Source of the DNA: Acidobacteriota bacterium
GTDB taxonomy: Bacteria > Acidobacteriota > Terriglobia > Bryobacterales > Bryobacteraceae
Assembly (NCBI GenBank): GCA_029776225.1
Contig: JAKOTR010000091.1
Coordinates: forward strand, 1 to 64,000
Direction: 5' to 3'
Length of the DNA stretch: 64,000 nt
Within the stretch, counting starts at the first letter, position 1. Each line of letters starts with the position of its first letter. A program made the position numbers and the translations under genes. The notes under the pieces are model-generated. The model searched no databases, was not told the DNA's origin, and saw nothing but the letters and a program-made list of their open reading frames with translations. This document shows, in pieces, positions 8,642-49,287 of this stretch.

Positions 8642-8671
8642 GATTGCTTTTCGCTTTTTGTTGAGGAGAGG

Positions 8672-8701
8672 AAAAACCTGCGCTTCCGGGGCGGGGTTTT
8701 T
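8672..8701 (+). terminator. Possible rho-independent terminator
   Basis: AAAAACC at 8672 can pair with GGTTTTT ending at 8701, enclosing a GC-rich loop and ending in a T-run. It follows the beta-propeller stop by about 30 bases. The loop is long and the stem A/T-rich, so support is moderate. Confidence 0.45.
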
Positions 8702-8848
8702 ACTCTTGATGAAGCGCGGGGGTTATGTGCCGGACAGGCTCAACGGACGTTCAACACTGCCGGCGCACGAACGGCCTCGGGCCAGGTATGCGCAAAAAAA
8801 CGCTGAAATCCGGCAGCCGGCAGGTTGCACTAAGTTTTCCAGAGCGAG

Positions 8849-9070: not shown

Positions 9071-9263
9071 AGCACACTCCTTTGGATCACGGCGCAAAAG
9101 CGCGCCGAATTGTTGTGCATCGCCGAAAACAGTCCGCGCCCGTCCACTTCGCAAAGGAAAGCATTCTACTCAGGAGCCCAACCCTACCACTCCTCTGCGG
9201 AGTGCGCGAATACGGAAGGAACAATTGCCGATTCCGGCGAAATGATAATACCGGACAAACTTA

Positions 9264-9272
9264 ATTATACCA
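9264..9272 (-). promoter_or_regulatory. Extended -10 promoter element for the small basic protein
   Basis: On the minus strand this reads TGGTATAAT, an exact extended -10 motif (TGnTATAAT). The -35 region is not recognisable, as is common with extended -10 promoters. It would give a leader of about 185 bases before the ATG at 9070. The surrounding intergenic stretch (9071-9416) otherwise shows nothing. Confidence 0.4.
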
Positions 9273-9416
9273 GATCGCCCCGGAAAAGCCCCTTTTCATC
9301 AATAATTGGACTGTTTTCAGTAACTTCAGCCTGCAGCGGCCGCCCGAAAACCGGCGGGAGAGTTGCCGCCGCCCCGGCAAAGCCATACGATAGTCTGGTT
9401 GCGGGAGCAGACTACG

Positions 9417-10352: not shown

Positions 10353-10362
10353 GGAAGAGAAT

Positions 10363-11838
10363 ATGGACACCATTTCCCGCCGCAGACTACTCGCCTCACT
10401 CGCGGCTGTTCCCGCCGCTCTCCGCTCAGCGGAAGACGGCTGGACGCCATTGTTCGACGGCAAATCGCTCGACGGCTGGACGCCGAGCGAAAGCAAGAAT
10501 TCCTGGAAAGTCGTGGACGGCATGCTGGCCGGCGACGGCCCGCGCTCCCATCTGTTCTACACCGGCCCGGTGCGCGGCGGCGTGTTCAAGAACTTCGAGC
10601 TGAAGCTCGACGTGATGACCCGGCCGCAGTGCAATTCCGGGATTTACTTCCACACGCGGTTCCAGCCTTCGGGCTTCCCGCGGCAAGGCTTCGAGGTTCA
10701 GATCAACAACAGCGCCCTCGGCGAAGGCAGTTACCGCGAGCGCAAGAAGACCGGCTCGCTCTACGGCGTCCGCAATGTCTACAAAGCTTTCGTACGCGAC
10801 AACGAGTGGTTCCAGGTTCACATCTCGGTGCGGGGCAAGCAGGTTCAGGTCAGGCTGAACGGTGTTCTGCTGGTGGATTACGTCGAGCCCGATCCGCCGG
10901 TGCCCGATCCCGACGAACCCGGACGCATCCTCACCACCGGCACGTTCGCGCTTCAGTGCCACGATCCCGGGTCGAAGATGTTCTACCGCAACATCCTGGT
11001 GCGCCCGCTGCCGGACGACCTTGTTGTCGACGTCCCGCGGCCGGTAGTCGATGACACCTACCGCCGGATCCGCACCCTCAGCTCGCGCAATTACCCGGTT
11101 GTCGATTATCACGTGCATCTGAAGGGCGGCTGGACTCTGGAGCAGGCGCTGCGCTACTCGCGCGAGGTTGGCATCGGCTACGGCATCGCAGTCAACTGCG
11201 GTGTCGGCTTCCCAATCACCAACGACGCCAGCGCCGAGCAGTTCCTGAAATCGATGGAGGGACAGCCGGTGTTCGTCGCCATGCAGGCCGAAGGACGCGA
11301 ATGGGTCAAAATGTTTTCGCCGCAAACCGTCGCGAAGTTCGATTACGTTTTCACCGATTCGATGACCTTCACCCACAACGGCCGCCGCATCCGCCTGTGG
11401 ATTCCCAAGGAAGTTGGTCCGATCGACGACAAGGAAGCCTTCATGGACGTGATCGTGGACCGCACCGTGGAGATCCTGTTGAACGAACCGATCGACATCT
11501 ACGTCAACCCCACCTTCCTGCCCAGCGTCATGGAGGCCGACTACGACCGCCTGTGGACCCCCGAGCGCATGGAACGCGTGATCGCAGCCGCGAAGAAAAA
11601 CGACGTGGCCATTGAGATCAACAACCGCTACCGCATTCCGAGCGCGAAATTCATCAAGGCGGCGAAAGCGGCGGGGTTAAAGTTTTCCTTCGGCACGAAC
11701 AACGACGACAGCAATATCGGCCGGCTCGAGTATGCGCTCGAAATGGTCGAGGAGTGCGGCCTGCGGTGGCAGGACATTTTCGTCCCCAAGCCCGACGGCG
11801 AGAAGCCTGTTCAGAAACGGGGACTGCCGAAGGCGTAA
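10363..11838 (+). CDS. Exported DUF1080 (3-keto-disaccharide hydrolase) fused to a PHP-like metal-dependent domain
   Basis: 491 residues. The N-terminus SRRRLLASLAAVPAAL is a twin-arginine-like export signal. Residues about 28-220 are a DUF1080 concanavalin-like domain (WTPLFDGKSLDGWTP; NSGIYFHTRF; QGFEVQINN). DUF1080 proteins include 3-keto-glycoside hydrolases. From about residue 240 a second domain begins with YPVVDYHVHLKGGW, whose HxH near residue 250 is the opening metal motif of PHP/amidohydrolase-type enzymes; EINNRYRIPS and FGTNNDDSNIGR fit the later parts of a PHP barrel. It is co-transcribed with the ThuA gene. The fusion is unusual and could join glycoside cleavage with a metal-dependent hydrolysis. 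The order of reactions is inference. Confidence 0.85.
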   Translation: MDTISRRRLLASLAAVPAALRSAEDGWTPLFDGKSLDGWTPSESKNSWKVVDGMLAGDGPRSHLFYTGPVRGGVFKNFELKLDVMTRPQCNSGIYFHTRFQPSGFPRQGFEVQINNSALGEGSYRERKKTGSLYGVRNVYKAFVRDNEWFQVHISVRGKQVQVRLNGVLLVDYVEPDPPVPDPDEPGRILTTGTFALQCHDPGSKMFYRNILVRPLPDDLVVDVPRPVVDDTYRRIRTLSSRNYPVVDYHVHLKGGWTLEQALRYSREVGIGYGIAVNCGVGFPITNDASAEQFLKSMEGQPVFVAMQAEGREWVKMFSPQTVAKFDYVFTDSMTFTHNGRRIRLWIPKEVGPIDDKEAFMDVIVDRTVEILLNEPIDIYVNPTFLPSVMEADYDRLWTPERMERVIAAAKKNDVAIEINNRYRIPSAKFIKAAKAAGLKFSFGTNNDDSNIGRLEYALEMVEECGLRWQDIFVPKPDGEKPVQKRGLPKA

Positions 11839-11844
11839 CGCGGT

Positions 11845-11886
11845 TTCGCGGCCGCGTTTGGGTTTCTTCAACCTCGCGGCCGCGAA
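11845..11886. terminator. Bidirectional terminator-like inverted repeat between convergent genes
   Basis: TTCGCGGCCGCG (11845-11856) and CGCGGCCGCGAA (11875-11886) are perfect 12-base inverted repeats separated by 18 bases. The repeat lies just after the DUF1080-PHP stop and just before the end of the convergent dehydratase gene, the usual place for a two-way terminator. No long T-run follows on either side. Confidence 0.65.
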
Positions 11887-11901
11887 GATGCCCTTAAACC
11901 A

Positions 11902-13116
11902 TTACCAATCGACTACCGATCCGTCGTCCTCATCGAATTGCGGCCTGTACTCTCTCGGCTCGCCAACCTGGGCCCTCAGCTTGTCTTCGTCGATCGTGAT
12001 GCCCAGGCCCGGATCGGTCAGCAGCGGCCGGTATCCGTTCTTGACTGGCGGCATCGGCTTCGCCAGCAAGTCGAGGTGTTCGCGGTCGCCGCCTTCCTGG
12101 ATGAGGAAGTTCGGGATCGACGCCGCGATCTGGTAGCTGGCTGCGAGCGAAACCGGACCCTGCGGGTTGTGGGGTGCAATCGGCGAGTAGTAGGACTCGG
12201 CCATGCCCGCAATCAGCCTCAACTCGGTGATGCCGCCCGCATAGCACACATCGGGTTGAAGGATGCTGGCGGCGCGTTTCTCAAGCAACTCCCGGAAACC
12301 CCACTTTGTGAAGATGCGCTCTCCGGTCGCCAGCGGGATGTGGGTTTTGCGGGCGATCTCCGCCATCACGTCCACGTTGAGGCACTGGACGACCTCTTCA
12401 TAGAAAAAGGGCTGATACGGCTCGAGCGCTTTCACCAGCAGCATCGCTGTCGGCGGCTGCACCGCCCCGTGGAAGTCGATGCCGATATCCGCGTCGGGAT
12501 ATTTTTCCCTCAGCGCCTTGAACCGGTCCACGACTTCCGCGACGAACTTCGGACCCTCAACATACTTGTAAGGCATACGCCCGATTCCCCGAGGCGTCAC
12601 CTTCATCGCGTTTACACCGGTCTCTTTACTGATGCGCCCGTACACCCGGATCCTGTCGCGAGTAGGCCCGCCAAGCAGTTTATAGACCGGCACGCCGAAA
12701 GCCTTGCCTTTGATGTCCCAAAGCGCCTGATCGATGCCGCTGAGAATGGCCGTCTTGATCGGACCGCCGCGATAGAACGCACCGCGGTGGATCGCTTGCC
12801 ACAAATACACAACCCGTAACGGATCCTGACCGACCAGAAAACGCCCGACCTCCTGCGCGCCCGCCGCGCACGCCTTGGCGTCGTCTTTGAGCATTTCACC
12901 CCAGCCGACGATGCCGGCGTCCGTGGAAATCTTGACGAACACCCAACTGTTCTTGAGGACGAACGTCTCGAGTTTCGTGATCTTGATATTGTCTTTTGGC
13001 CCGATCTGCGCGGCATTGGTCCGCTCGCATGTGAAGACCGAATCCAGGGTGAACAGCGCCCCCGAGCCGATCAATCCGCGAAGCCAGGAGCGGCGACTTA
13101 GAGGAAACTCCGCCAT
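11902..13116 (-). CDS. Mandelate racemase/muconate-lactonizing family dehydratase (galactonate dehydratase-like), Tat signal
   Basis: 404 residues. An RRSWLRG twin-arginine signal opens the protein, which is unusual for a family normally cytoplasmic. The enolase-superfamily barrel shows the metal ligands Asp214 (GIDFHG), Glu240 or 241 (FYEEVV) and Glu266 (ATGERI), together with His216 and His316 (APHNPQGP). The DFH and PHNPxGP pattern is that of D-galactonate dehydratase and related sugar-acid dehydratases. It probably removes water from an aldonic acid to give a 2-keto-3-deoxy acid. It converges on the ThuA/DUF1080-PHP operon and may belong to the same carbohydrate pathway. The exact sugar acid cannot be told by eye. 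Confidence 0.88.
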   Translation of the reverse strand: MAEFPLSRRSWLRGLIGSGALFTLDSVFTCERTNAAQIGPKDNIKITKLETFVLKNSWVFVKISTDAGIVGWGEMLKDDAKACAAGAQEVGRFLVGQDPLRVVYLWQAIHRGAFYRGGPIKTAILSGIDQALWDIKGKAFGVPVYKLLGGPTRDRIRVYGRISKETGVNAMKVTPRGIGRMPYKYVEGPKFVAEVVDRFKALREKYPDADIGIDFHGAVQPPTAMLLVKALEPYQPFFYEEVVQCLNVDVMAEIARKTHIPLATGERIFTKWGFRELLEKRAASILQPDVCYAGGITELRLIAGMAESYYSPIAPHNPQGPVSLAASYQIAASIPNFLIQEGGDREHLDLLAKPMPPVKNGYRPLLTDPGLGITIDEDKLRAQVGEPREYRPQFDEDDGSVVDW

Positions 13117-13317
13117 GCAAAACCTCCCTTCCGTGTCGTTGCCGGTCAGTCAAACTGCCCGGACTTTGTAATATGCCGGCCGATCCATGTCAAGCCGGAT
13201 CCAAACCAGTGTACATTCAGGCGGGCCGCGAAGCGTGGTCAATTTTTGGCCGGCGAACACGATCCGGGCGCTTTTCGTATTTTCCAGTTGTAAGAAATTC
13301 GGGTTTCTGGAGTCTCC

Positions 13318-13887
13318 ATGAATGAGGACGGTAGGCGGGAGAACAAAATGAGCACGGGCGCGCCAACAGTTTCCACACCCGCGGCTGAGTTGGAAGCGAT
13401 CTTCCAGGCTCACAGCAGCCGGGTTTACCGGATCGCCCGCCGGATCACCGGCGATGCCGGCGACGCCGAAGACGTGCTGCAGACAGTTTTCCTGAAGATG
13501 TTGCGCCGGGGCTGGGAATCCGCCTCGGTAAAACACCTGGAAAGCTATCTGCATCGTACCGCCGTAAACGCAGCGCTCGACGTGCTGCGGGCGCGCCGGA
13601 CAGCCGCCGCAGCGCCGCTGGAAGAAGCGGCGTTCGCCCAGGATCCCCGCCTTCAACCCGACCGGCAGAACGACGTTCGGGAGCTGCGCGCCGGCTTGCG
13701 CGCCGCGGTGGCGCGGCTGGCGCCCAGGTCAGCCGAAATATTCGCGCTGCGCTACTTCGAAGGCTACGGCAACCAGGAAATCGCGCAAATGTTGGGCACA
13801 ACACCTTCCGACGTGGCGATCACCCTCCACCGTGCCAGGGTCAAGCTTCAACAGGAATTGCGTTCTTATTTAGGAGAGACGTCATGA
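13318..13887 (+). CDS. ECF-type RNA polymerase sigma factor
   Basis: 189 residues from the first ATG; an in-frame ATG at 13348 with GGCGGGAG upstream is an equally good start. Region 2 is seen at about residues 38-65 (VYRIARRITGDAGDAEDVLQ) and region 4 at about 140-180 (IFALRYFEGYGNQEIAQMLG then VAITLHRARVKLQQEL), the standard sigma-70 family layout without region 3. It would direct RNA polymerase to a small regulon. Its stop overlaps the start of the next gene (ATGA at 13884), which encodes a membrane protein with an anti-sigma zinc motif. That protein is likely to hold this sigma factor inactive until a signal arrives. Confidence 0.93.
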   Translation: MNEDGRRENKMSTGAPTVSTPAAELEAIFQAHSSRVYRIARRITGDAGDAEDVLQTVFLKMLRRGWESASVKHLESYLHRTAVNAALDVLRARRTAAAAPLEEAAFAQDPRLQPDRQNDVRELRAGLRAAVARLAPRSAEIFALRYFEGYGNQEIAQMLGTTPSDVAITLHRARVKLQQELRSYLGETS

Positions 13888-16445
13888 ATACCGAGGGCAA
13901 GGGCCAGGATCCCATTCTCGACCGGGCGATTTCGGAGATTCGCAACGAACCCATCGATCCCGCCGAAATCAGCGCGGCGGCCAGCCGCGTCTGGAACCGG
14001 CTCTCGAGCGCCGCGCCCGCCCATTCCCACGAAGAGATAGAAACCATTCGCACCTGCGCCGATTACCAGGCGCTGCTGCCCGCGTACCGCGGGGGTACGC
14101 TATCGCGCGCGCGGGCGATGCTCGTGGAAGATCATCTCCATGAATGCGTGGTGTGCCGGAAGGCGATGGCGCCTCGGCCGCCCGTGGAAGCCGTCCCCGT
14201 TCGCTGGCCCGCCGCCCCCGTCTGGAAGTGGGCCGTCGCGGCGGCGATCATGCTCGCTGTCGGCCTGAGCGGGTATCTCGCATACGATCGTTTCGCCCCG
14301 GCCCCTGCCGGCCCGCGGGCCACCGTCCATGCCATCGACGGCACCCTTTACAAAGTGGCTGGCGGCTTCGCAACGCCGCTCGCTGTGGCGGCAACGATCG
14401 AGGAGGGCGAATCGATCCGCACCGCCAAAGGTTCGGGCGCGGTGATCCGGCTGGCCGACGGCTCGCTGGTTGAGATGCGCGAACGGACGGAGTTTTCTCT
14501 CACCGCGCGCCGCCGCGACGTTACCATTGACCTTGCCGGCGGCAGCGTCATCGTGCAGGCGGCCAAGCAGCGGAAAGGACGTCTCTACGTTTCCACCGGC
14601 GACTGCCTGGTTTCGGTGACCGGAACCGTGTTCTCGGTCAACCGCGGCGTCAAGGGGTCGCGCGTTTCGGTGATCGAAGGCGAGGTCCGCGTGGAGCAGG
14701 GCAACCGGACCACGGTGCTGCACCCGGGCGACCAGGTCGCCACTGGCGCCGCGCTCGCTCCCGTCCCGCTGGAACAGGAGATCGCCTGGAGCCGCAACTT
14801 CGAGCAGCATATCGCTCTGCTGAACGAGTTCGCCAAGATCCGGCGCAAGCTGGAAGCCATGCCCGGCCCGGCCCTGCGCTATTCCAGCAGGCTCCTGGAG
14901 CTGGTTCCCGACGCCGTCGTCTTCTACGCCGCGATTCCCAATCTCGGTCCCACACTCACCGAAACGAACCGCATCTTCCAGGAGCAGATCCAGCAGAGCG
15001 AAGCGCTGCGGCAGTGGTGGGCCGAAAAGATGGGAACGCCCGAACAGCAGGCGAAATTTGACGAAATCCTTAGCCGCATCCGCGCCGCGAGCGATTACCT
15101 GGGGCAGGAGATCGCCTTTGCGCTCTTGCCGGACGCCGCCGGACGCAACGAACGCCCGCTTTTCCTCGCCGAGGTAACGCGCGGCGGGTTCCGCGAATTT
15201 CTCCAGCAGGAAATCGCAAGGGTTGCGGAGCAATCCGGCGGCAAGGCGCACATTCGCATTGTCGACAATCTCGCGGCAGTCCCTGTTGGCGGCCACGACC
15301 TGCTGATCTGGGTTGGCGACAACATTGTCGCGGCATCGAGCGACCCGGCACTGCTGCGTTTGGCCGCCTCGGGCGGCGGTTCGAGGGCGCCGGAATCCGA
15401 ATTTAAGAAGCGGATCGCGTCGGCCTATGCGGAGGGCGTGAGCTGGCTGGTTTGCGCGGATATGCGCGCCCTGATCGGCAAGTCCGGCGGCAAAGACATG
15501 GAGCGGAGCGGCTTCGGCGACGTGCGGTATCTGATCGCGCAGCGCAAGGACGTCGCCGGCCGGGCCGAAAACCGCGCCGTGCTGTCGTTTGCCCAGCCGC
15601 GACGCAGCATCGCTTCGTGGCTGGCGGCGCCCGCCCCCATGCGCGTGCTCAGCTATATCTCCCCCGATGCCACGGTGGCCGCAGCGGCCGTGGCGAAAAA
15701 CCCAGCCCGGATGCTGGAGGACGTTGCCGCCGCCGCGGGCTCGGAGTTCCTGTCAGACCTCTCGGAGTTCGAAGCGCAGACCGGCGTGAACTTCGCCACC
15801 GACCTGGTTGAACCGCTTGGCGGCGAAATCGCCTTTGCGATCGACGGGCCGATGCTGCCCGTGCCTTCCTGGAAGCTGGTGTTGGAGGTCAACAATCCGG
15901 ACAGGTTTGTGGCGGCACTGGGCAAGCTGGTTGCGGCCGCCAACAGCCGGGCGGGGACAATAATGGAGCCGCTGCGGCTCGATCAGCAGCCCGCCGGGGG
16001 GCGCGTCTTCTATACGTTGACGGGCGGCAAGCCGAATCTGGAAGCCCACTTCGTCTTTGAGAACGGCCTGCTGATCGCCGCGCCGAGCAGGGACCTTGTA
16101 GTCCGTGCGCTCGAATATGCCGCGACTGGGTATTCGCTCCCGCGCTCGCAGAAGTTCACCGCCCTGCTGCCGCGCGACGGCCACACAAACTTCTCGGGAA
16201 TGGTGTACCACGACGTTGGCGCGCTGGTAGCGCCGCTCGCCGGCGCCATCGAGCTCACGCCTGAGCAGCGCAAGTCTGTCGAAGCGCTCGGGCGCGGAAA
16301 TGAGCCGGTGCTGATCGTGGCTTACGGCGAAGAGGACCGCATCCAGCTCGCGTCCCGCGGCTCTTTCTTCGGGTTCCGCCTGGAGCAAGTGCTCGGCCTC
16401 ACGTTCCACGGCCCGCAGGGGACGCCCCGAAGGCCTCGCCAATAG
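13884..16445 (+). CDS. Membrane anti-sigma/FecR-domain protein with large exported C-terminal region
   Basis: 853 residues. A cytoplasmic N-terminal segment carries a zinc anti-sigma motif of HxxxCxxC form ([12 protein letters not shown], about residues 84-95). A single membrane segment follows ([20 protein letters not shown], about 113-132), then a periplasmic FecR domain (about 148-290: [20 protein letters not shown], then SVTGTVFSV and HPGDQVATG). Residues 320-853 form a long region of DUF3352-like character ([33 protein letters not shown]) of unknown role. It is coupled to the sigma factor gene. Most FecR anti-sigma proteins are under 400 residues, so the added C-terminal region is notable and may be the sensor. 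No TonB transducer lies next to it. Confidence 0.8.
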
Positions 16446-37973: not shown

Positions 37974-39089
37974 ATGGAATTCAGCGTTAGCAAAGCGGAT
38001 CTGGTGAGAGAGCTGAGCCTGGCCCAGGGGGTTGTCGAAAAGAAGACAACGATCCCGATTCTTTCCAACGTCCTGATGGAGACTGCCGGGGATCGTGTGC
38101 AGCTCACTGCTACGGACTTGGAACTCGGGATACGGTGCTCCTTCCCGGCGCGGGTGTCGAAAGAAGGCGCGGGAACGGTGCCGGTGCGGCGGCTGCTCGA
38201 TTATGCCCGCCTGTTGCCCGATGTCGATCTCACGGTGAAGTTCCTGGAGAACCATTGGGCGAGCCTGGTGTGCGGGCGGTCGCGGACCCGGATCGCGGGC
38301 ATCTCGCGGGAGAGTTTTCCGGAGCTGCCGGAGATGCCGGCGCCGCTGGCGGAAGTGCCGGCGAGTGTTCTTGCGCTGATGATCGGCAAGACGATTTTCG
38401 CGATCTCATCGGAGGACTCGCGGTTCACGCTGAATGGATCGCTGCTGCTGCTCAAGCCGGATGGAATGGTGATGGTTTCGACCGACGGCCACCGGCTTGC
38501 GCACGTAGAGAGCGCAGTGGAAATTCCTGGAATCACAGGGGACTACCGGGCTTTGCTCCCGAAGAAGGCGATGACCGAGATTCTGAAGCTTGCCGGTGAG
38601 GCGGGCGACGATGCGGTTGTGAAGTTCGCCGGTGACGAGAACCACCTGTTTTTCCAGCTTGGTTCGCGGCTCCTCATCAGCCGGAAGCTGACGGGCACTT
38701 TTCCGGATTACGAACGGGTGCTTCCGAAGGACCAACGCAACTCCGTAACGCTGTGCAGGGAGGAAGTGAGGGCAGCTATCGAGCGAGTGGCGCAGTTTGC
38801 CGACGAGCGTTCTCACGCCATCCGGCTCCAGATCAGCCCGGGCGAGGTCAAGGTCTTCTCTTCAATTTCGGATACGGGCGAAAGCGAGGAGGTAATTCCA
38901 GCCGAGTACGACGGCGCCGCGATGGAGATCGGCTTTAACGCGCAGTATCTGCTTGAGTTCATGCGCGCCGTTCAGGAAAAGTTCGTTACGTTCTCGTTTA
39001 AGGACCCGCACAGCGCGGCGGAAGTCAGGCCGGTTGGGGGCGACGAGAGCTATCGTTACCGGTACATCGTAATGCCGATGCGGATTTAG
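37974..39089 (+). CDS. dnaN: DNA polymerase III sliding clamp (beta subunit)
   Basis: 371 residues, the standard length, with three clamp repeats. It begins MEFSVSKADLVRELSLAQGV and includes KKTTIPILSNVLMETAGD near residue 24; the C-terminus YRYRYIVMPMRI is typical of DnaN. It forms a ring dimer around DNA and tethers polymerase III and other partners. The gene follows dnaA by 240 bases and precedes gyrB by about 90. No frameshift or missing part is seen. Confidence 0.97.
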   Translation: MEFSVSKADLVRELSLAQGVVEKKTTIPILSNVLMETAGDRVQLTATDLELGIRCSFPARVSKEGAGTVPVRRLLDYARLLPDVDLTVKFLENHWASLVCGRSRTRIAGISRESFPELPEMPAPLAEVPASVLALMIGKTIFAISSEDSRFTLNGSLLLLKPDGMVMVSTDGHRLAHVESAVEIPGITGDYRALLPKKAMTEILKLAGEAGDDAVVKFAGDENHLFFQLGSRLLISRKLTGTFPDYERVLPKDQRNSVTLCREEVRAAIERVAQFADERSHAIRLQISPGEVKVFSSISDTGESEEVIPAEYDGAAMEIGFNAQYLLEFMRAVQEKFVTFSFKDPHSAAEVRPVGGDESYRYRYIVMPMRI

Positions 39090-39176
39090 ATCGGCGTTGC
39101 GGGTTCCGCTGATTCGAGACGGCACGACACGTACGCGTGAAGTGTGGCGTGGCACCCAAGACAAGGATTTGATTGA

Positions 39177-41621
<2,445 letters not shown>

Positions 41622-41670
41622 GGCGCCCGTCTGATTCTTCGCCCCGGCTGCAATATTTAACTACATAAAA

Positions 41671-41687
41671 ATTCAACTGGGTTGAAT
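41671..41687. promoter_or_regulatory. Palindromic operator upstream of the MarR-Hdr-Mvh operon
   Basis: ATTCAAC-TGG-GTTGAAT is a perfect 7-3-7 inverted repeat, 17 bases, of the size and type bound by MarR dimers. It lies 123 bases before the ATG of the MarR gene (41810) in an AT-rich stretch, so it could regulate the whole downstream operon. Confidence 0.65.
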
Positions 41688-41809: not shown

Positions 41810-42409
41810 ATGGCAGTTAACCGCACAGCGGGCCTGATTGAGAAGTTCCTCGGGAGCACACATCTGTTTACGCTGGCCCTGACGGAAGTTCTCGAGGAGA
41901 ACCTGCTGCGCGAGGCGGAGTCGGGGCGGGTGACGCCGGCGCAGATGAAAGTGTTGAAGCTGGTGTCCCGGGCGAAGGAGCCGAGCGTGGGAGACGTCGC
42001 GAGCTTTCTGGGGGTGAGCGATGCGGCGGCGAGCAAGACGATCGACCGGCTGGTGCGGAACGGGTTGCTCGAACGGACGCCGGGCAAGCAAGACCGGCGG
42101 TCGAGCGAGCTGGCGTTGACGCCGCGGGGTCGGCGGGTGCTGGAAAAATTCGAATCGGGGCGGCAGCGGTGGCTGGCGCAGGTGTTCCAGCGGATCCCGG
42201 CTCAGCGCCTGGAAGTGAGTGCTGGCGTGCTCTCCGAGCTGGCTTCCATGATCGTCGCCACGAGCTCGAACTCCGGCCAGATCTGCCTTCAGTGTGGAGT
42301 TTACTTTGAGGATCGCTGCCTGCTCCACGAGGCGGTCCGCCAGACGTGCCAGTACCGAAAGAAATCCCGGCAGAGCACGCGGCTGCCGCAGGGAGGAAGG
42401 ACAACATGA
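41810..42409 (+). CDS. MarR-family regulator with C-terminal four-cysteine motif
   Basis: 199 residues, against about 140-150 for a normal MarR. The winged helix is at about 45-115 (PAQMKVLKLVSR; SVGDVASFLGVSDAAASKTI; GLLERTPGKQDRRSSELALT). After the dimer helices, at about 159-180, comes a cluster CLQCGVYFEDRC...C with spacing CX2CX7CX9C (Cys159, 162, 170, 180), which could bind an Fe-S cluster or zinc. GGAG precedes the start. The stop overlaps the hdrC start by ATGA, so it is the first gene of the Hdr/Mvh operon. It probably senses redox state or metal and controls the operon through the palindrome at 41671. Confidence 0.85.
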   Translation: MAVNRTAGLIEKFLGSTHLFTLALTEVLEENLLREAESGRVTPAQMKVLKLVSRAKEPSVGDVASFLGVSDAAASKTIDRLVRNGLLERTPGKQDRRSSELALTPRGRRVLEKFESGRQRWLAQVFQRIPAQRLEVSAGVLSELASMIVATSSNSGQICLQCGVYFEDRCLLHEAVRQTCQYRKKSRQSTRLPQGGRTT

Positions 42410-42981
42410 AGCAGACGATGAAGTTCCAGCGGGAAGCGGATCCCGAGTGGTCCGAGCGCTTCCGGACGCTGCCCGGGTGCGAGCGCATTTCCTCTTGCAT
42501 CCAGTGCGGCACCTGCTCGGGCACGTGCCCGCTTTCGATCTACATGGATTACACGCCGCGCAAGATCATCGCGCTGATCCGCGCGGGATTCCGGGAAGAA
42601 GCGCTGAGCTCGAAGACGATCTGGCTGTGCGCGTCGTGCTACTCCTGCGCGGCGCTCTGCCCGCAGCAGATCCACATTACCGACGTGATGTACAGCCTGA
42701 AGCGGGAGGCCATCCAGGCAAAGAAGTATCCGCCGCGCTTCCCCATTCCGGTGCTGGCCCAGGAGTTCTTCAACTACGTGAAGAACTGGGGGCGCAACGC
42801 GGAGATCCCGGTGGTGCTGAAGATGGCGCTGAAATCGAACCCCTTTATCCTGCTGAGCATGATCCGGTCCGGTTGGGGGCTGTTCCGCACGGGGCGAATC
42901 TCGCTCAAGCGTGAGCGGATCAAGAGAACGGGCGAGCTTCAGCGCGCGCTATCCGCTGTGAAGGAGCACAGTCATGCCTGA
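42406..42981 (+). CDS. hdrC: Heterodisulfide reductase subunit C (HdrC-like)
   Basis: 191 residues. Two 4Fe-4S motifs are present: CIQCGTCSGTCPLSIY (about residues 30-45) and CASCYSCAALCP (about 73-84). Between and after them the sequence matches HdrC, ending in a basic tail. In the Hdr complex HdrC passes electrons between HdrA and HdrB. An in-frame ATG at 42346 lies within the MarR gene and is rejected; the ATG at 42406 overlaps the MarR stop. The 3' end overlaps hdrB by eight bases. There is no membrane domain, so it belongs to the soluble HdrABC type. Confidence 0.93.
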   Translation: MKQTMKFQREADPEWSERFRTLPGCERISSCIQCGTCSGTCPLSIYMDYTPRKIIALIRAGFREEALSSKTIWLCASCYSCAALCPQQIHITDVMYSLKREAIQAKKYPPRFPIPVLAQEFFNYVKNWGRNAEIPVVLKMALKSNPFILLSMIRSGWGLFRTGRISLKRERIKRTGELQRALSAVKEHSHA

Positions 42982-43882
42982 GAATCGCGGTTATCTGTAT
43001 TTCCCCGGATGCTCGCTGCGGGCGACCGGCGCGGCCTATGACGAGAGCCTTACGGAGACGTTCCGCCTGCTGGGCATACCGATCGAAGAGCTGGAGGACT
43101 GGAACTGCTGCGGCGCCACCTCCTACATGGCGGTGGACGAGAACTCGGCGTTCCTGCTCTCGGCGCGCAACCTGTCCATCGCGGCGCAGCAGGGCGGGCG
43201 CGACCTGATGGCGGCGTGCAGCGCGTGCTATCTGGGGCTGCGGAAGGCGCAGGACTACGTTGAGCACTACCCGGAAGTGCGGGCGAAGGTGGAGGCGGGG
43301 CTGAAGGCCGCCGAGCTCAAGCCGTTTACGGGAGTGAAGGTCAGGCACACGCTGGAGATCCTGTACAACGACGTCGGCGTGGCGCAGATCAAGTCGAAGG
43401 CGGTCCGCAAGTGGCAGGGCGGCAAACTCGCCTGCTACTACGGCTGCCAGGCGGTGCGGCCGTACGACGAAGTGGACAACCCGCACAACCCGATGCGCAT
43501 GGACGAGCTGATGCGCGCGGTGGGCGCCCAGACGGTGGATTATCCCCTGAAGACAAAATGCTGCGGCGGCACGCTGACGGGAACGATTCACGACGTGGGC
43601 GTGCGGCTGAACTACATTCTGCTTAAAGAGGCGGTGCGCAAGGGGGCCGAGGCGATCGTGACGATCTGCCCGCTGTGCCAGTTCAATCTGGACGCCTACC
43701 AGTGCGAGATCACGGGAGATCAGGGCGAGAAGTTCGACGTGCCGATCCTTTACTTTACGCAGGTGCTGGGATGGGCCCTCGGCGGCGACCCCGGCAAGCT
43801 CGGGCTGAAGCGTTGCATTGCCGGCCAGTCGAAGATCAAGAACTGGTTTTCCGCAAAACAGGAGGTAGCGAGCCATGCGTGA
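42974..43882 (+). CDS. hdrB: Heterodisulfide reductase subunit B (HdrB-like, CCG domains)
   Basis: 302 residues. Two CCG (DUF224) repeats are seen: PGCSLRAT then NCCGATSYM and SACYLG in the first half, and CYYGCQ then KCCGGTL and CPLCQFNLDAY in the second. These cysteine sets bind the non-cubane [4Fe-4S] clusters that carry out disulfide cleavage in methanogen HdrB. It lies between hdrC and hdrA with 8-base overlaps on both sides. Outside methanogens the substrate of such HdrB is unknown, because CoM-S-S-CoB is absent. Confidence 0.93.
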   Translation: MPENRGYLYFPGCSLRATGAAYDESLTETFRLLGIPIEELEDWNCCGATSYMAVDENSAFLLSARNLSIAAQQGGRDLMAACSACYLGLRKAQDYVEHYPEVRAKVEAGLKAAELKPFTGVKVRHTLEILYNDVGVAQIKSKAVRKWQGGKLACYYGCQAVRPYDEVDNPHNPMRMDELMRAVGAQTVDYPLKTKCCGGTLTGTIHDVGVRLNYILLKEAVRKGAEAIVTICPLCQFNLDAYQCEITGDQGEKFDVPILYFTQVLGWALGGDPGKLGLKRCIAGQSKIKNWFSAKQEVASHA

Positions 43883-45872
43883 GTCCAACGGAGCGGTACG
43901 GGTCGGCGTTTATGTCTGTCACTGCGGCTCCAACATCGGGGCGATCGTGGATTGCAAGGCGGTCGCCGAGTACGCGGCGGGGCTGCTCCACGTGGCGGTT
44001 GCCCGGGACTACAAGTACATGTGCTCCGACCCGGGGCAGGAGCTGATCCAAAAGGATATCGAGGAGCACAAGCTGAACCGGATCGTGGTGGCGTCGTGCT
44101 CGCCGCATTTGCACGAGAACACGTTCCGCGTGGCGACGGCCAAGGCCGGGCTGAATCCCTACTACCTGACGATGGTGAACATCCGGGAGCACGACTCCTG
44201 GGTGCACACGGACCGCGCGGCCGCCACGGAGAAAGCAAAGGACCTCGTGCGGGGCGCCGTCCGCCGGGTGGTACTGCAAAGGCCCCTGGAGAAGGGGCGG
44301 GTGCCGATCGACCCGAAGGTGCTGGTGGTGGGCGGAGGCATCGCCGGAATCCATGCGGCGCTGACGCTGGCCAACGCCGGCAAGAAGGTCTACCTGGTGG
44401 AGCGCGAACCCACCATCGGCGGCCACATGGCCATGTTCGACAAGACGTTCCCGACGTTAGATTGCGCGGCCTGCATTCTGACGCCGAAGATGTCCACGGT
44501 CAAAAACCATCCGAACATCACGCTGTGGACGTATTCGGAAGTCGAGAGCGTGAGCGGCTACGTCGGCAACTACGACGTGAAGGTGAGGCGGCGGACGCGG
44601 TATATCAACGAGGACCTCTGCTCGGGGTGCCAGGAGTGCATCGCGGCCTGTGTCTTCAAGGAGCCGAAATTCCCGGACGAGTTCAACCAGAGGTTGGGCA
44701 AGCGCAAACCCATTTACCTGCCGTTCCCGCAGGCGGTGCCGCAGACGCCGGTGATCGATCCGGAGACCTGCATCGAGTTCAAGACTGGCAAGTGCAAGAA
44801 GACGTGCCTGGAGGCCTGCGCCGACCGGCACGCGATCGACTTCAAGCTGACGGACACGGTCGAGGAAATCCGGGTCGGCACGATCATCGTGTGCACCGGC
44901 TTCCAGGCCTACGACGCCAGGCGCAGCCCGCAGTTCGGCTACGGCATTTATCCCAACGTTTATACGTCGCTCGAAATCGAGCGCCTGGTCAACGCCGCGG
45001 GGCCGACGGCCGGCGAGGTGGTGCTGCGGGACGGCAAGACGGTTCCCAGAAGTATCGGCATTATCCACTGCGTGGGTTCGCGGGACGAGAACGCGAACCG
45101 GTGGTGCTCGCGCGTGTGCTGCATGTACTCGCTGAAGCTGGCGCACCTGTTGAAAGAGCACACGGACGCGGAGATTTTCAACTTCTATATCGACATGCGG
45201 ACGCCGGGGAAGTCCTTCGAGGAGTTCTACCAGCGGCTGCTGAATGAGGGCGTGCATTTCATCCGCGGCAAGGTGGCCGAAGTCACCGACTGGGCGGCCG
45301 ATCCGAGTGAGGAAGGCAAGCTGGTGCTGCGGGTGGAGGACACGCTGCTCGGAGTGGTGCGGCGGATCCCGGTGGACATGGTAGTGCTTTCGGTGGGTCT
45401 GGAGCCGCACGCGGACGCGCAGGACGTGCGCCGGATGTTCAACATGACCTGCTCGAACGAGGGATTCTTCCTCGAGCGGCACCCGAAACTGGCGCCGGTG
45501 AACACGTTCACCGACGGCGTTTTCCTGGCCGGCTGCTGCCAGGGTCCGAAAGACATTCCGGATACGGTGGCGCAGGCAGGCGCGGCGGCGGCCGAAGCGA
45601 TGGCGCTGATCGACGCCGGATACGTCGAGCAGGAGCCCAACGTCGCGTACGTGATCGAGGAGGACTGCTCGGGCTGCAAGACGTGCATCCCGATGTGCCC
45701 CTACAGCGCGATCACGTTCCGCGAACAGGACAAGAAGGCGGAAGTCAACGCGGTGCTCTGCAAAGGCTGCGGGACGTGCGTGGCGGCGTGCCCGTCGGGT
45801 TCGATACAGCAGCGGCTCTTTGAAGACGACGAGCTGTTCGAGGAACTCGAAGGAGTGCTGATCCATGCGTAG
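43875..45872 (+). CDS. hdrA: Heterodisulfide reductase subunit A (HdrA-like flavoprotein)
   Basis: 665 residues. An N-terminal Fe-S region (VGVYVCHCGSNI at about 10-21) precedes a FAD fold beginning VLVVGGGIAGIHAAL (about 149-163). A conserved TLDCAACILTPKM follows, then a ferredoxin pair near 248 (CSGCQECIAAC). The C-terminus has two further 4Fe-4S motifs, CSGCKTCIPMCP and CKGCGTCVAACP. HdrA holds the FAD that bifurcates electrons between ferredoxin and HdrB. Overlaps and spacing (8 bases with hdrB; MvhD 27 bases on) show one operon. No frame problem is seen. Confidence 0.95.
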   Translation: MRESNGAVRVGVYVCHCGSNIGAIVDCKAVAEYAAGLLHVAVARDYKYMCSDPGQELIQKDIEEHKLNRIVVASCSPHLHENTFRVATAKAGLNPYYLTMVNIREHDSWVHTDRAAATEKAKDLVRGAVRRVVLQRPLEKGRVPIDPKVLVVGGGIAGIHAALTLANAGKKVYLVEREPTIGGHMAMFDKTFPTLDCAACILTPKMSTVKNHPNITLWTYSEVESVSGYVGNYDVKVRRRTRYINEDLCSGCQECIAACVFKEPKFPDEFNQRLGKRKPIYLPFPQAVPQTPVIDPETCIEFKTGKCKKTCLEACADRHAIDFKLTDTVEEIRVGTIIVCTGFQAYDARRSPQFGYGIYPNVYTSLEIERLVNAAGPTAGEVVLRDGKTVPRSIGIIHCVGSRDENANRWCSRVCCMYSLKLAHLLKEHTDAEIFNFYIDMRTPGKSFEEFYQRLLNEGVHFIRGKVAEVTDWAADPSEEGKLVLRVEDTLLGVVRRIPVDMVVLSVGLEPHADAQDVRRMFNMTCSNEGFFLERHPKLAPVNTFTDGVFLAGCCQGPKDIPDTVAQAGAAAAEAMALIDAGYVEQEPNVAYVIEEDCSGCKTCIPMCPYSAITFREQDKKAEVNAVLCKGCGTCVAACPSGSIQQRLFEDDELFEELEGVLIHA

Positions 45873-45898
45873 TCGGCGCGGAGCAAAGGAGTCTGAGA

Positions 45899-46354
45899 AT
45901 GTCTGAAGCAAAGTTCGAACCGAGGATCGTGGCTTTCTTCTGCAACTGGTGCACGTATCTGGCAGCCGACCTGGCGGGCATCTCGAGGATGAAGTATCCG
46001 CCGAACGCACGGGTGATCCGCGTAATGTGCTCGGGCCGGATCGATCCGCAGTTCATTGTGAAGGCGTTTGCGAACGGCGCCGACGGCGTGCTGATCGGCG
46101 GTTGCCACCCCGGCGACTGCCACTACCAGGAAGGCAACTACAAGTGCCTGCGCCGGTTCACGCTGCTGAAGCGCGTGATCCAGGAGATGGGGATCGAGGA
46201 CGAACGGCTCCGGCTGGAATGGATCTCGGCAGCGGAAGGCGACCGGCTGCGGACGGTAATGTTCGACATGGTGGAGAAGGTGCGGGCGCTGGGTCCGCTG
46301 AACTGGAAGCCCGCTGAAGAGAAAGCGCCCGTAGCGGAGGAGGTGACGGCATGA
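45899..46354 (+). CDS. mvhD: Hydrogenase iron-sulfur (delta) subunit MvhD
   Basis: 151 residues, with AAAGGAG upstream. IVAFFCNWCTYLAADLAG at about residues 10-27, VIRVMCSGRID near 40 and IGGCHPGDCHYQEGNYK near 66 are the defining MvhD motifs and bind a 2Fe-2S cluster. In methanogens MvhD links the hydrogenase to HdrA, which is consistent with its place between hdrA and mvhG. The stop overlaps the mvhG start as ATGA at 46351. Confidence 0.95.
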   Translation: MSEAKFEPRIVAFFCNWCTYLAADLAGISRMKYPPNARVIRVMCSGRIDPQFIVKAFANGADGVLIGGCHPGDCHYQEGNYKCLRRFTLLKRVIQEMGIEDERLRLEWISAAEGDRLRTVMFDMVEKVRALGPLNWKPAEEKAPVAEEVTA

Positions 46355-47310
46355 AGCCGAAGGTAGCATTCTACTGGTGCGCGTCCTGCGGCGGTTGCGA
46401 GGAATCGAGTGTCGACCTGGGCGAAGCGCTTCTGGATGTAGCCGAGGCGATCGACATCGTGCTCTGGCCGGTGGCGCTTGACTTCAAGAAGCACCACATC
46501 GAGGCGATGGCCGATGGCGAGATCGTGGCGGCATTCATCAACGGCGCGGTGCGGTCGAGCGAACAGGAGGAGTGGGTACACCTGCTGCGGAAGAAGTCGC
46601 AGGTGGTGATCGCGTTCGGTTCCTGCGCGCAGCTCGGCGGCATACCGGGGCTGGCCAATTTCTTCAATCGCGCGGGGGTACTCGAAGCGGCTTACCGCGA
46701 ATCGCCGAGCACCGTAAATCCCAACGGCGTATTCCCCCAGACGGTGCACAAGGACAACGGCTTCACGCTGACGCTGCCGGTGCTGCACGACACCGTGCGC
46801 ACGCTGGACCAGGTGATCGACGTGGATTACTACATCCCGGGCTGCCCGCCGACGCCGCAGTTGCTGGCGGATGCGGTGCAGGCGCTGCTTTCGGGTAAGC
46901 TGCCCCCCAAGGGCGCGGTGCTGGCGCCCGATCACGCGCTGTGCAAGGATTGCCCGCGCAGGGACACGAAACCCGAGAAGCCGATGATTTCCGAGTTCAA
47001 GCGGCCGCATGAGGTCGTGATCGACCAGACCCAGTGCCTGCTGAACCAGGGCCTGTTGTGCCTGGGCCCGGCCACGCGCAGCGGCTGCGGCGCGCTGTGC
47101 ATCGAGGGCAACATGCCCTGCACGGGATGCTTTGGCCCGACGTCGCGCGTGCGCGACTACGGCGCCAAGGCGCTTTCGGCGATCGCATCGATGGCAGACA
47201 GCAACGACGACGCGGAGATCGCGGCCATACTCTCGAAGATCCCGGATCCGGCGGGAACGTTCTATCGCTACTCCCTGCCGGCATCGGCGCTGCAAAGGAA
47301 AAAGTTATAG
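46351..47310 (+). CDS. mvhG: [NiFe]-hydrogenase small subunit (MvhG-like, group 3c)
   Basis: 319 residues. The proximal cluster ligands appear as WCASCGGCEES (about 10-20), FGSCAQLGG (about 89-97) and PGCPPTPQ (about 165-172). The C-terminal part has more cysteines in SGCGALCIEGNMPCTGCFGP, which bind the medial and distal clusters. This is the F420-non-reducing, cytoplasmic type, with no Tat signal. It is coupled to mvhD and followed by mvhA 12 bases later. Confidence 0.95.
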   Translation: MKPKVAFYWCASCGGCEESSVDLGEALLDVAEAIDIVLWPVALDFKKHHIEAMADGEIVAAFINGAVRSSEQEEWVHLLRKKSQVVIAFGSCAQLGGIPGLANFFNRAGVLEAAYRESPSTVNPNGVFPQTVHKDNGFTLTLPVLHDTVRTLDQVIDVDYYIPGCPPTPQLLADAVQALLSGKLPPKGAVLAPDHALCKDCPRRDTKPEKPMISEFKRPHEVVIDQTQCLLNQGLLCLGPATRSGCGALCIEGNMPCTGCFGPTSRVRDYGAKALSAIASMADSNDDAEIAAILSKIPDPAGTFYRYSLPASALQRKKL

Positions 47311-47322
47311 GAGGCCCCTCAA

Positions 47323-48822
47323 ATGCCGGTAGAGACAACGACACGCAGAATTACGATCGATCCGATTACGCGGCTGGAAGGGCACGGCAAGATCGAGATA
47401 TTCCTGGATGACGACGGGCAGGTCGAGCGGGCGTACTTCCAGGTGCCCGAGCTGCGCGGGTTTGAGAAGTTCGCGCAGGGGCGTCCGGCGGAAGACATGC
47501 CACAGATCACGTCGCGCATCTGCGGCGTGTGCCCCACGGCCCACCACATGGCGGCCACACGGGCGCTCGATAACCTGTACCAGGTGACGCCGCCGCCGGC
47601 CGCGCAGAAGATCCGCGAGCTGGTCTTCAACACGTTCATGGCCGAGGACCACGCGCTGCACTTCTACTTCCTTGGCGGGCCGGACTTTGTGGTCGGGCCG
47701 CAGGCGCCGGCGGCCGAGCGAAACGTGCTGGGAGTGGTGGCCAGGGTCGGAGTGGAGACCGGCAAGGCGGTGATCTCGATGCGGCGGAAGCTGCGCGAGC
47801 TGACCACGCTGGCGGCGGGCAAGACCGTGCATCCCGTCTTCGGGCTGCCGGGCGGAGTCGCCAAGCCGCTTACCGAGGCCGATCGCCAGCGCTTCCGCGA
47901 GGTGGCGGCCGAGGCGGTGGATTTCGCGCAGTTCACCCTCGAAACGTTCGAGAAGATCGTGCTCGAGAACTCGGACTACGGGGACCTGATCACCGGCGGC
48001 GTCTTCACGCACCGCACCCACTACATGGGGATGGTGGACTCCAACAACCAGGTGAACTTCTACCAGGGCTCGCTCCGCGTGGTGACGCCGGAAGGCAAGG
48101 AAGTTGCGAAGTTCGCGCCGGAGAAGTACCTGGACTACATCGCCGAGCACGTCGAGCCCTGGAGCTACATGAAGTTCTGCTACCTGAAGCAGCCGGGGTG
48201 GAAGGGCTTCATGGAGGGCGCCGATAGCGGAGTGTTCGCGGTGGCTCCGCTCGCGCGGCTGAACGTGACCGAAGGCATGCCGACGCCGCTCGCGCAGCAG
48301 GCCTACGAGAAGTACATCAAGACGCTGGGCAAGCCGGTGCACCACACGCTGGCCACGCACTGGGCGCGGATCATCGAGCTGATCTACGCCACGGAGCGGA
48401 TGAAGCAACTGGCCGACGACCCCGAGATCACCGATCCCAACGTGCGCACGATTCCGACGGCAACTCCGCGCGAAGGCGTCGGCGTGGTGGAAGCGCCGCG
48501 GGGCACGCTCATCCACCACTACAAGACCGATGAGCGCGGCCTGATTACCGCGGCAAACCTGATTGTGGCCAGCCAGAACAACGCCGCCCGCATGTCGATG
48601 AGCGTTGAGAAAGCGGCCAAGGGGCTGCTCTCCGGAAGGGAGATTTCCGAGGGCTTGCTCAACATGGTGGAGATGGCGTTCCGGGCGTACGATCCGTGCC
48701 TGGGCTGCGCCACGCACTCGCTGCCCGGGAGCATGCCGCTCTCGGTGCGGGTGCGCGGGCGTGACGGCGAGACGCTCAGCATGCTCGTGCGCGACGCGGA
48801 CGGCGCCATTCGGAGGAGCTGA
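47323..48822 (+). CDS. mvhA: [NiFe]-hydrogenase large subunit (MvhA-like, group 3c)
   Basis: 499 residues. The L1 motif is RICGVCPTAHH (Cys67, Cys70) and the L2 motif DPCLGCATH (Cys459, Cys462, His465); together they ligate the Ni-Fe centre. A C-terminal extension of about 34 residues follows L2 and should be removed by the protease encoded next. The two motifs and neighbours place it in group 3c, which transfers electrons from H2 to Hdr. All four metal cysteines are intact, so activity is expected. The maturation hyp genes are not in this window. Confidence 0.96.
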   Translation: MPVETTTRRITIDPITRLEGHGKIEIFLDDDGQVERAYFQVPELRGFEKFAQGRPAEDMPQITSRICGVCPTAHHMAATRALDNLYQVTPPPAAQKIRELVFNTFMAEDHALHFYFLGGPDFVVGPQAPAAERNVLGVVARVGVETGKAVISMRRKLRELTTLAAGKTVHPVFGLPGGVAKPLTEADRQRFREVAAEAVDFAQFTLETFEKIVLENSDYGDLITGGVFTHRTHYMGMVDSNNQVNFYQGSLRVVTPEGKEVAKFAPEKYLDYIAEHVEPWSYMKFCYLKQPGWKGFMEGADSGVFAVAPLARLNVTEGMPTPLAQQAYEKYIKTLGKPVHHTLATHWARIIELIYATERMKQLADDPEITDPNVRTIPTATPREGVGVVEAPRGTLIHHYKTDERGLITAANLIVASQNNAARMSMSVEKAAKGLLSGREISEGLLNMVEMAFRAYDPCLGCATHSLPGSMPLSVRVRGRDGETLSMLVRDADGAIRRS

Positions 48823-48828
48823 TCCCCT

Positions 48829-49287
48829 ATGGCGGCGCGGGTTCGTGTGCTCGGGCTGGGCAACGAGCTTCTCGCCGACGACGCCGTAGGCATTCTGGCG
48901 GCCCGGAAGGTGGCCGAACGCTGTCCTCCGGAGGAGGTGGAGGTCATCGCGAGTTCCGAATCCGGCCTCTACCTCCTGGAGTACGTCACGGATGTGGCGC
49001 GCCTGATCGTGATCGATTCGGTGCAGACTGGCCGCACGGCTCCGGGTACGATCCACGTGGTGTGCGAAGAAAACGTACGGGCGGCACCGGGCAGCACGCC
49101 TCACGGTACGGGGCTGTTCGACGCCCTCGCCCTTGCGCGCAAGTTGGGCTATAACGTTCCCAAGGAAGTGATCATCCTGGCCGTGGAAGCGGCCGACTGC
49201 CTCACAATCGGCGGTGAGATGCATCCCGGCGTGGCTGCCGCGATTCCGGAACTTGTCGAGCGCGTGGTGCGGATGTCGGTGAACTGA
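48829..49287 (+). CDS. Hydrogenase maturation protease
   Basis: 152 residues of the HybD/HycI family. GLGNELLADDAVG (Glu), VIDSVQTG (Asp) and PHGTGLFDAL (His) supply the three residues that bind nickel and test the large subunit. It cleaves the C-terminal extension from MvhA after the Ni-Fe centre is inserted. It follows mvhA by six bases and is the last gene of the operon. Specificity for MvhA is inferred from position. Confidence 0.93.
   Translation: MAARVRVLGLGNELLADDAVGILAARKVAERCPPEEVEVIASSESGLYLLEYVTDVARLIVIDSVQTGRTAPGTIHVVCEENVRAAPGSTPHGTGLFDALALARKLGYNVPKEVIILAVEAADCLTIGGEMHPGVAAAIPELVERVVRMSVN

Follow-up and report, generated by a model that had tools for sequence, protein, structure and literature searches.

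A bacterial HdrABC-MvhADG hydrogenase operon in a Bryobacteraceae genome and two outlet modules among its relatives

Identification of the operon

The window analysed here (64,000 nucleotides, contig JAKOTR010000091.1 of the Acidobacteriota assembly GCA_029776225.1, family Bryobacteraceae) exhibits a tight row of genes on the + strand at 41810-49287, marR-hdrC-hdrB-hdrA-mvhD-mvhG-mvhA-hyaD, in which neighbours overlap or almost touch. We are highly confident in predicting that this operon encodes a bacterial electron-bifurcating hydrogenase complex, HdrABC-MvhADG, probably of group 3c. Among its relatives, two different electron outlet modules precede the same hydrogenase core, and the comparison of these modules bears on the acceptor of the HdrB subunit. 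The genes of the row are as follows.

41810..42409, + strand: marR, MarR-family regulator of 199 residues (Pfam MarR 1e-12), with a 4-base overlap with hdrC
42406..42981, + strand: hdrC, two-[4Fe-4S] ferredoxin-like subunit (Pfam Fer4_8 3.7e-10; PDB 8rvv_C 4.7e-21)
42974..43882, + strand: hdrB, subunit with two CCG domains (Pfam CCG 8e-25, two stretches; PDB 8rvv_B 4.1e-45)
43875..45872, + strand: hdrA, flavin adenine dinucleotide (FAD) and multi-[4Fe-4S] bifurcating subunit of the type I clade (several Pfam matches; NCBIfam HdrA2 5.6e-257, under cut-off; PDB 8rvu_a 5.7e-213)
45899..46354, + strand: mvhD, subunit linking HdrA to the hydrogenase (Pfam FlpD 1.9e-55)
46351..47310, + strand: mvhG, hydrogenase small subunit (Oxidored_q6 3.2e-24; NCBIfam VhuG 3.3e-63)
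47323..48822, + strand: mvhA, [NiFe] large subunit (Pfam NiFeSe_Hases 1.2e-39; PDB 5odc 1.4e-116), with a C-terminal extension past the last histidine
48829..49287, + strand: hyaD/hycI, hydrogenase maturation protease (Pfam HycI 1.4e-15; TIGR00072 108 bits against a cut-off of 47)

The six subunits and the protease that the original prediction had located at 42406-49287 are all present, at that place and on that strand; marR is part of the same row. The hdrC reading frame stays open in the 5' direction as far as 42346. All seven hdr, mvh and protease proteins exceed the Pfam cut-offs. The top NCBIfam matches from hdrC to mvhA are HdrC, HdrB, HdrA2/HdrA, HdrA2/VhuD, VhuG and VhuA, every one below its curated cut-off, the protease being the sole operon protein above such a cut-off. 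The methanogen equivalog cut-offs are missed by HdrA (626 of 1400 bits), HdrB (172 of 345), HdrC (84 of 160) and VhuA (397 of 800), a pattern as for distant homologues of the methanogen subunits. The best solved matches of HdrA, MvhA, HdrB and HdrC are chains of methanogen HdrABC-MvhAGD complexes in the PDB. A plasmid origin of the operon was considered and rejected, the best plasmid match covering just 3% of it. Scans for promoters and terminators gave signals at or below chance.

Homologues were mapped by tblastn in 80 named contigs and the window (81 loci), and conservation was counted after the removal of rows by length (2 of 42 for HdrB, 3 of 39 for HdrC, 26 of 85 for HdrA, 1 of 77 for MvhD, 8 of 83 for MvhG and 4 of 86 for MvhA; 1 of 17 and 5 of 20, respectively, for the fusion and membrane proteins described below). 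All ten cysteines that are ligands of the noncubane clusters of HdrB, including both bridging residues (Cys85 and Cys235), are present in 40/40 full-length proteins, the window among them. Both noncubane-cluster sites are complete in the window HdrB, Cys85 and Cys235 being the last cysteine of each set. Conservation is similarly high for the eight cluster cysteines of HdrC (36/36 homologues), the ligand cysteines of MvhG (73-75 of 75), the five cysteines of MvhD (74-76 of 76), the four NiFe cysteines of MvhA (81-82 of 82) and the cluster cysteines of HdrA (57-59 of 59). One HdrA cluster is spaced CX7CX3CX3C, against CX2CX2CX3C in the methanogen chains compared. Its four cysteines are kept in 59, 58, 59 and 59 of the 59 proteins, which makes it a bacterial feature and not a defect. 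With this spacing as a footnote, the earlier claim that all metal-binding motifs are intact holds.

The motifs L1 (ICGVCPTAH) and L2 (AYDPCLGCATH) of MvhA match the group 3c patterns ICGxCxxxH and AYDPCxxCATH, which set Mvh apart from other [NiFe] groups (PMC6085437). MvhADG and HdrABC are encoded together in one row, the genomic arrangement that serves to recognise group 3c. A careful 26-row tree unites the bacterial MvhA sequences with three methanogen Mvh/Vhu rows, apart from HoxH, HydL and another hydrogenase from contig 21 of the same genome (support 100/98). Several observations weigh against this placement: the tree has few references and the stem of the bacterial clade is long (1.25); in a quick 88-row tree, which includes a 3b row of length 10, the methanogen rows join HoxH/HydL instead; and the PDB scores of MvhA lie close together (393 bits for 5odc Mvh, 388 for HydL 7t2r and 341 for HoxH 5xf9). 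The assignment of the window MvhA to group 3c is supported by its motifs and the 26-row tree, but not proven. A placement outside this group, named in the original prediction as its refutation, did not occur.

Distribution among relatives

With an MvhA match of >=50% identity as a proxy for the clade, we found 43 positives among 396 genomes of the phylum (some of the matches being partial) and 27 among 237 of the family, the genome of the window being included in both counts. A scan of named contigs gave at least 579 relatives among 587 candidate stretches, the best 80 of which come from Acidobacteriota, Verrucomicrobiota, Ignavibacteria, Bacteroidota, Planctomycetota, Armatimonadota, Zixibacteria, one Chloroflexota and others. 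Group 3c has previously been listed for Acidobacteriota (PMC11245096). The operon belongs to a known and widespread bacterial kind and is not rare. The closest named relatives are metagenome-assembled genomes of Bryobacterales/Bryobacteraceae, in agreement with the description of the genome as acidobacterium-like. A comparison of gene order with Deltaproteobacteria and Chloroflexota had been proposed; the single Chloroflexota locus (L077) exhibits the same order, and no Deltaproteobacterium is found among the best 80 loci. In five loci from several phyla (L060, L075, L076, L105, L112), the Hdr-Mvh operon has another hydrogenase just 5' of it, with a match of 26-39% to MvhA.

Two outlet modules before one mvhDGA core

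The maps of the 81 loci distinguish two arrangements. Thirty-nine loci are of type I, with hdrC-hdrB as in the window, 19 are of type II (one of them, L110, called from a 38% match alone), 3 carry both modules and 20 are uncalled. In type II, a protein made of an HdrC-like half fused to a CCG half, followed by EtfB, EtfA and an EtfD-like membrane-type protein (612-696 residues), is encoded ahead of mvhDGA. The idea that a trio of 256, 325 and 670 residues in the relatives is a fumarate reductase was discarded, Pfam and PDB matches identifying these proteins as EtfB, EtfA and the EtfD-like protein. Loci listed as type II or tandem are L051, L052, L054, L057, L058, L065, L074, L104, L108, L111, L114 and L126, and L196, L201 and L203 (G510, G513, G525).

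Within the family, 20 loci were fetched, of which six end too early and one (G475) is complex. Besides the window, five are of type I (G477, G522, G550, G612, G397) and five of type II (G470, G471, G398, G524, G526). Three are tandem operons (G510, G513, G525), in which fusion-etfB-etfA-emo-hdrA is followed by hdrC-hdrB-hdrA-mvhDGA. The G475 locus (L193) carries an EtfD-like gene, marR and hdrC-hdrB-hdrA (47-57% identity), then another hdrA and mvhDGA. The named and family loci overlap (L049 is G477, L051 G471, L052 G470, L053 G475, L055 G510, L058 G398, L064 G550, L066 G612, and others). In the window, gyrB/dnaN (37974-41621) adjoin the type I operon; in L050-L052 (type II or uncalled) the operon also adjoins gyrB/dnaN, in an orientation opposite to gyrB, and the other mapped loci have no such neighbour.

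The two modules differ at the residues expected to matter for catalysis. In a joint alignment, the positions of HdrB Cys85 and Cys235 hold cysteine in 40/40 HdrB sequences and in 0/16 type II fusions. Elsewhere the fusions keep cysteine at the positions of Cys158, 196, 197 and 232 (16/16) and mostly at Cys45 (14/16), rarely at Cys82 (2/16) and never at Cys13 and Cys46 (0/16). The type II membrane protein lacks the second cysteine of the CPxx motif (15/15), and its three first-CCG ligand stretches are devoid of cysteine in 15/15 sequences, save one off-register cysteine in three of them. By order and spacing, Cys85 and Cys235 correspond to Cys81 and Cys234 of the methanogen protein, the bridging residues that let the HdrB clusters react with disulfides (PMC13083937). 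Since the bridging cysteines are kept in HdrB and absent from the fusions, type II resembles a wire to quinone, and type I a catalytic disulfide site. The best solved relative of the type II membrane protein is the mycobacterial EtfD (9ojn, 3.6e-73), as is that of the fusion (1.4e-37), and this EtfD links ETF to menaquinone (PMC13083937). Taking the EtfD-like protein as quinone-linked from this kinship, we infer menaquinone as the type II acceptor.

The HdrA sequences follow this division. A careful 27-row HdrA tree splits 13 rows with the type I module from 14 others (13 with the type II module and one uncalled) with support 100/99, and the two HdrA copies of the tandem operons fall on opposite sides of the split. 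For the called rows, 9 type changes are needed on the MvhA tree versus 4 on the HdrA tree (62 rows out of the 81 loci), the row sets of the two trees being different. By this count and the split, HdrA tracks its outlet module more closely than MvhA. The pattern fits equally a tandem ancestry in which one module was lost and a repeated exchange of modules. In excerpts of open-licence PMC papers that treat Mvh/Hdr together with EtfAB, EtfD/EMO or menaquinone, we found no description of type II or tandem operons; in D. autotrophicum, hdrF3 adjoins etfBA and is reported as a locus separate from an mvh-hdrA cluster (PMC2702500).

The host genome

The genome carrying the operon, that of a soil-type acidobacterium (5.18 Mb, 115 contigs, 97.7% complete, 1.1% contaminated; the window is on contig 104), contains hypD, the only hyp gene searched for, with a hypF-like frame, noticed by eye, alongside. 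A lack of maturation genes, the other refutation named in advance, did not come true as far as this one member of the hyp set is concerned. The expected ferredoxin-dependent enzymes are present: POR-domain proteins are found at four places, one of them a pyruvate:ferredoxin oxidoreductase scoring 1887 bits against a cut-off of 911. There is a single HdrA, and one EtfD-like gene stands alone elsewhere in the genome, its product 31% identical to the type II EtfD-like protein.

A PF00374 search gave two further [NiFe] large subunits, one on contig 21 and one on contig 73; another two matches are shorter and, by their length, are taken to be NuoD. The contig-21 enzyme groups with HydL (99/96) and is 41% identical to the window MvhA. 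Beside it lies a 1050-residue protein, the first half of which resembles HydB of the bifurcating NiFe-HydABCSL (7t2r, 1.4e-198) and the second half NfnA-type chains; this HydL-like hydrogenase and HydB/NfnA-like fusion flavoprotein occupy about 8475-14875 of the contig (L146), minus strand. The first label given to the enzyme, 3d, is doubtful in view of the tree and of the HydB match, and the genome may have in it another hydrogenase of the bifurcating kind. The enzyme on contig 73 is 3b-like by eye and encoded close to hypD.

Four COX1-family proteins score over cut-off, two of which, in frames of 830 and 871 residues, could be nitric oxide reductase-like. These proteins make facultative life more likely, and the gene content as a whole points to an organism of this type that runs a ferredoxin economy. 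The anaerobic energy metabolism originally envisaged is therefore no more than half right. Neither MCR (PF02745), the marker of the CoM-S-S-CoB pathway, nor DsrC (PF04358) was found in this 97.7% complete genome, as foreseen for a host with no CoM-S-S-CoB (the heterodisulfide of methanogens) as partner. Their absence argues against both known or proposed disulfide partners.

The electron acceptor

The path that we propose is carried over by analogy from the solved methanogen complex; the parts, motifs, gene order and kinship are what the sequence itself provides. H2 would be oxidised at the NiFe site of MvhA, and the electrons would reach the FAD of HdrA by way of MvhG and MvhD. From this FAD, one electron would go to ferredoxin and the other via HdrC to the pair of noncubane clusters in HdrB. 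Reduced ferredoxin would feed the 2-oxoacid:ferredoxin oxidoreductases, and the substrate of HdrB would be of the disulfide type, other than CoM-S-S-CoB and DsrC. Such an acceptor is favoured by the bridging cysteines, which make such a site catalytic and which the type I HdrB proteins examined retain, whereas the Etf/EtfD-type outlet fusions lack both. For the disulfide-type acceptor taken by itself we put the balance as even. The whole explanation, a functional bifurcating 3c hydrogenase including this type of acceptor, we regard as moderately probable, our estimate being set at that level because the acceptor is part of it.

Several points weigh against it. No candidate disulfide was found, and in the 81 loci no conserved neighbour of the type I operons points to an acceptor. 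Seven neighbour clusters recur in at least 4 of the 81 loci, namely PAS/histidine-kinase proteins (13 loci), a cluster with no Pfam match (7 loci), an ATP-binding cassette ATPase, a cyclic-nucleotide (cNMP)-binding protein, an NAD-binding flavin-reductase-type protein beside a second hydrogenase and two GyrB pieces; none is plausible as an acceptor by its identity. HdrB scores 149.6 bits to the SdhE/MfrE anchor family versus 172.4 to HdrB, both under cut-off. The absence of DsrC and MCR depends on a genome that is 97.7% complete, and the direction of the reaction could be reversed. Finally, both modules occur together in 3/81 named and 3/20 family loci (L055 and G510 being the same locus), which shows that one outlet does not strictly exclude the other.

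The strongest competing explanation, which we consider unlikely though worth keeping in sight, is that HdrCB hands the high-potential electron to menaquinone, as is thought for the HdrB-like SdhE/MfrE. The complex would then be an H2:ferredoxin,menaquinone oxidoreductase doing the same job as the sister Etf/EtfD outlet. HdrB does match MFR_anch_SdhE at 1.3e-43, but its top NCBIfam and PDB matches are true HdrB. The relatives place a quinone-linked-looking module at the same spot before the same hydrogenase; that module, however, lacks the reactive cysteines that HdrB retains, and the row of the window has no gene for a membrane anchor. The potentials suit either acceptor. Against -414 mV for H2 and -420 mV for ferredoxin, those of CoM-S-S-CoB (-140 mV; PMC5861303) and menaquinone (-74 mV; PMC10734219) are such that a disulfide or a quinone could each drive ferredoxin reduction.

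We give considerably less credit to a complex working mainly in reverse, in which ferredoxin and a thiol (or quinol) would supply electrons to be confurcated to H2 as an anoxic safety valve. HydDB calls the group 3 enzymes bidirectional (PMC5037454), and the genome holds several ferredoxin-reducing oxidoreductases; yet 3c itself is listed as H2-consuming both by HydDB (PMC5037454) and in PMC11245096, and the sequence gives no sign of direction.

The MarR regulator and its candidate operator

The MarR protein encoded at the head of the operon carries a C-terminal tail with four cysteines, Cys159-x2-Cys-x7-Cys-x9-Cys180. Matches were found in 26/237 family genomes, and the four cysteines are present in all of the 25 loci fetched (25/25). 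In five of these loci, including the window, marR lies directly 5' of hdrC, and in two it lies 5' of the type II fusion. Four have it beside hyp genes (three of them also with a hydrogenase large subunit), and in 14 none of the tested genes is within about 1.5 kb. Ten proteins from those 14 loci were scanned, and seven are of FAD-binding, O-methyltransferase or tetrapyrrole-methylase families. This Cys-tailed family (window 41810-42409; loci L160-L184) is accordingly seen before both operon types and next to hyp genes of other hydrogenases. A structure model of the window protein (3-row alignment, mean predicted local distance difference test score, pLDDT, 71.6) matches MarR structures, residues 160-199 having no resolved fold.

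Upstream of marR lies a candidate operator.

41672..41686, + strand: palindrome TTCAACTGGGTTGAA, candidate MarR operator, 138 bases 5' of marR

An imperfect copy is found 16 bases further 5' (the two together at window 41656-41686), and imperfect copies at the same spacing recur in G477, G397 and G513. The motif was spotted by eye, after a 7-base-arm rule had found it in the window only, and was tested afterwards. TTYAACN3GTTRAA has a single match in the window (TTCAACTGGGTTGAA) and zero in 100 shuffles. A search of 2.02 Mb of loci for TTAACN3GTTAA gave seven matches, which fall on three distinct places (G477, G397 and G525), all 5' of marR; in G397 a cNMP-binding-like gene sits between palindrome and marR. 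G477 and G397 carry exact TTYAACN3GTTRAA matches, and G525 the shorter form. In the same 2.02 Mb, TTAAC/GTTAA with spacers of 0-2 and 4-8 has no match, and TTYAAC/GTTRAA with other spacers has 0 or 1 match each. A limit of the operator is that the looser TYAACN3GTTRA also matches five loci with no marR. Among the seven loci with marR directly 5' of hdr genes, the exact or shortened motif is present in four (window, G477, G397, G525), G513 has a site with 2 mismatches, and G476 (with an N gap) and G612 have none. The loci listed for the candidate motif are window 41656-41686, L190 7914-7944, L206, L201 and L203.

Between the window and G477, the operator arms have changed in step on both sides. 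We consider it very improbable that the operon is a relic, retained in patches and of little current use, as its occurrence in just 27/237 family genomes might suggest, given such paired changes, the open frames, the conserved ligands and the retention of protease and regulator. The Cys-tailed MarR probably switches the operon with the redox or metal state of the cell; among the titles listed for MarR, iron-sulfur clusters and hydrogenases, none concerns such a regulator.

These observations lead us to a tentative, rather speculative proposal. Within this acidobacterial family, one MvhDGA core may be served by two exchangeable modules, HdrCB with HdrA-I (disulfide site) and fusion-EtfBA-membrane EtfD-like protein with HdrA-II (menaquinone). 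Tandem operons may form a complex that mixes HdrA-I and HdrA-II and in which the electrons of H2 go to ferredoxin and to either the thiol or the quinone pool. The organism of the window would have kept the disulfide branch only, with the metal- or redox-sensing MarR setting the timing.

Significance and comparison with known systems

The kind of operon being already known, its interest comes mainly from the swap of outlets seen by comparison and from the regulator with its cysteine tail. The relatives form a natural experiment, the same hydrogenase having two outlets, with and without the disulfide-site cysteines, by which the question of the acceptor becomes testable. If the disulfide or the quinone reading is true, bacteria of soil and sediment possess an H2 path that yields reduced ferredoxin and is coupled to a thiol pool or to quinone, with no need of methanogen cofactors, and the MarR regulator would report when this path is used.

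The methanogen HdrABC-MvhAGD (PDB 5odc, 8rvu/9sw2 series) shares with the window operon six homologous subunits, the FAD subunit, the noncubane HdrB sites and the NiFe motifs. In contrast to it, the window has the six genes in one row with a protease and MarR, the HdrA spacing CX7CX3CX3C, subunits scoring below the methanogen equivalog cut-offs, and a genome lacking the marker of the CoM-S-S-CoB pathway. FlxABCD-HdrABC (PMC6687939) is alike in that HdrABC is joined to a donor module that can be exchanged, and in that a thiol-disulfide has been proposed as acceptor, but the donor in the window is a [NiFe] hydrogenase, and the genome gave no match for DsrC, which is the proposed carrier of Desulfovibrio; where DsrC is missing, an unknown thiol-disulfide carrier is invoked for HdrB (PMC6687939). 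MetFV-HdrABC-MvhD of Moorella (PMC6085437, PMC5861303) has the same HdrABC-MvhD core, but the window row has no MetFV and contains a hydrogenase. EtfD (PDB 9ojn, PMC13083937) is the closest solved relative of the type II fusion and membrane protein, and is not part of the window operon. The nearest likeness is with the bacterial group 3c operons of Acidobacteriota, Verrucomicrobiota, Ignavibacteriota and others, from which the window operon shows no essential difference, the order hdrCBA-mvhDGA being shared by most callable loci (39/81 type I).

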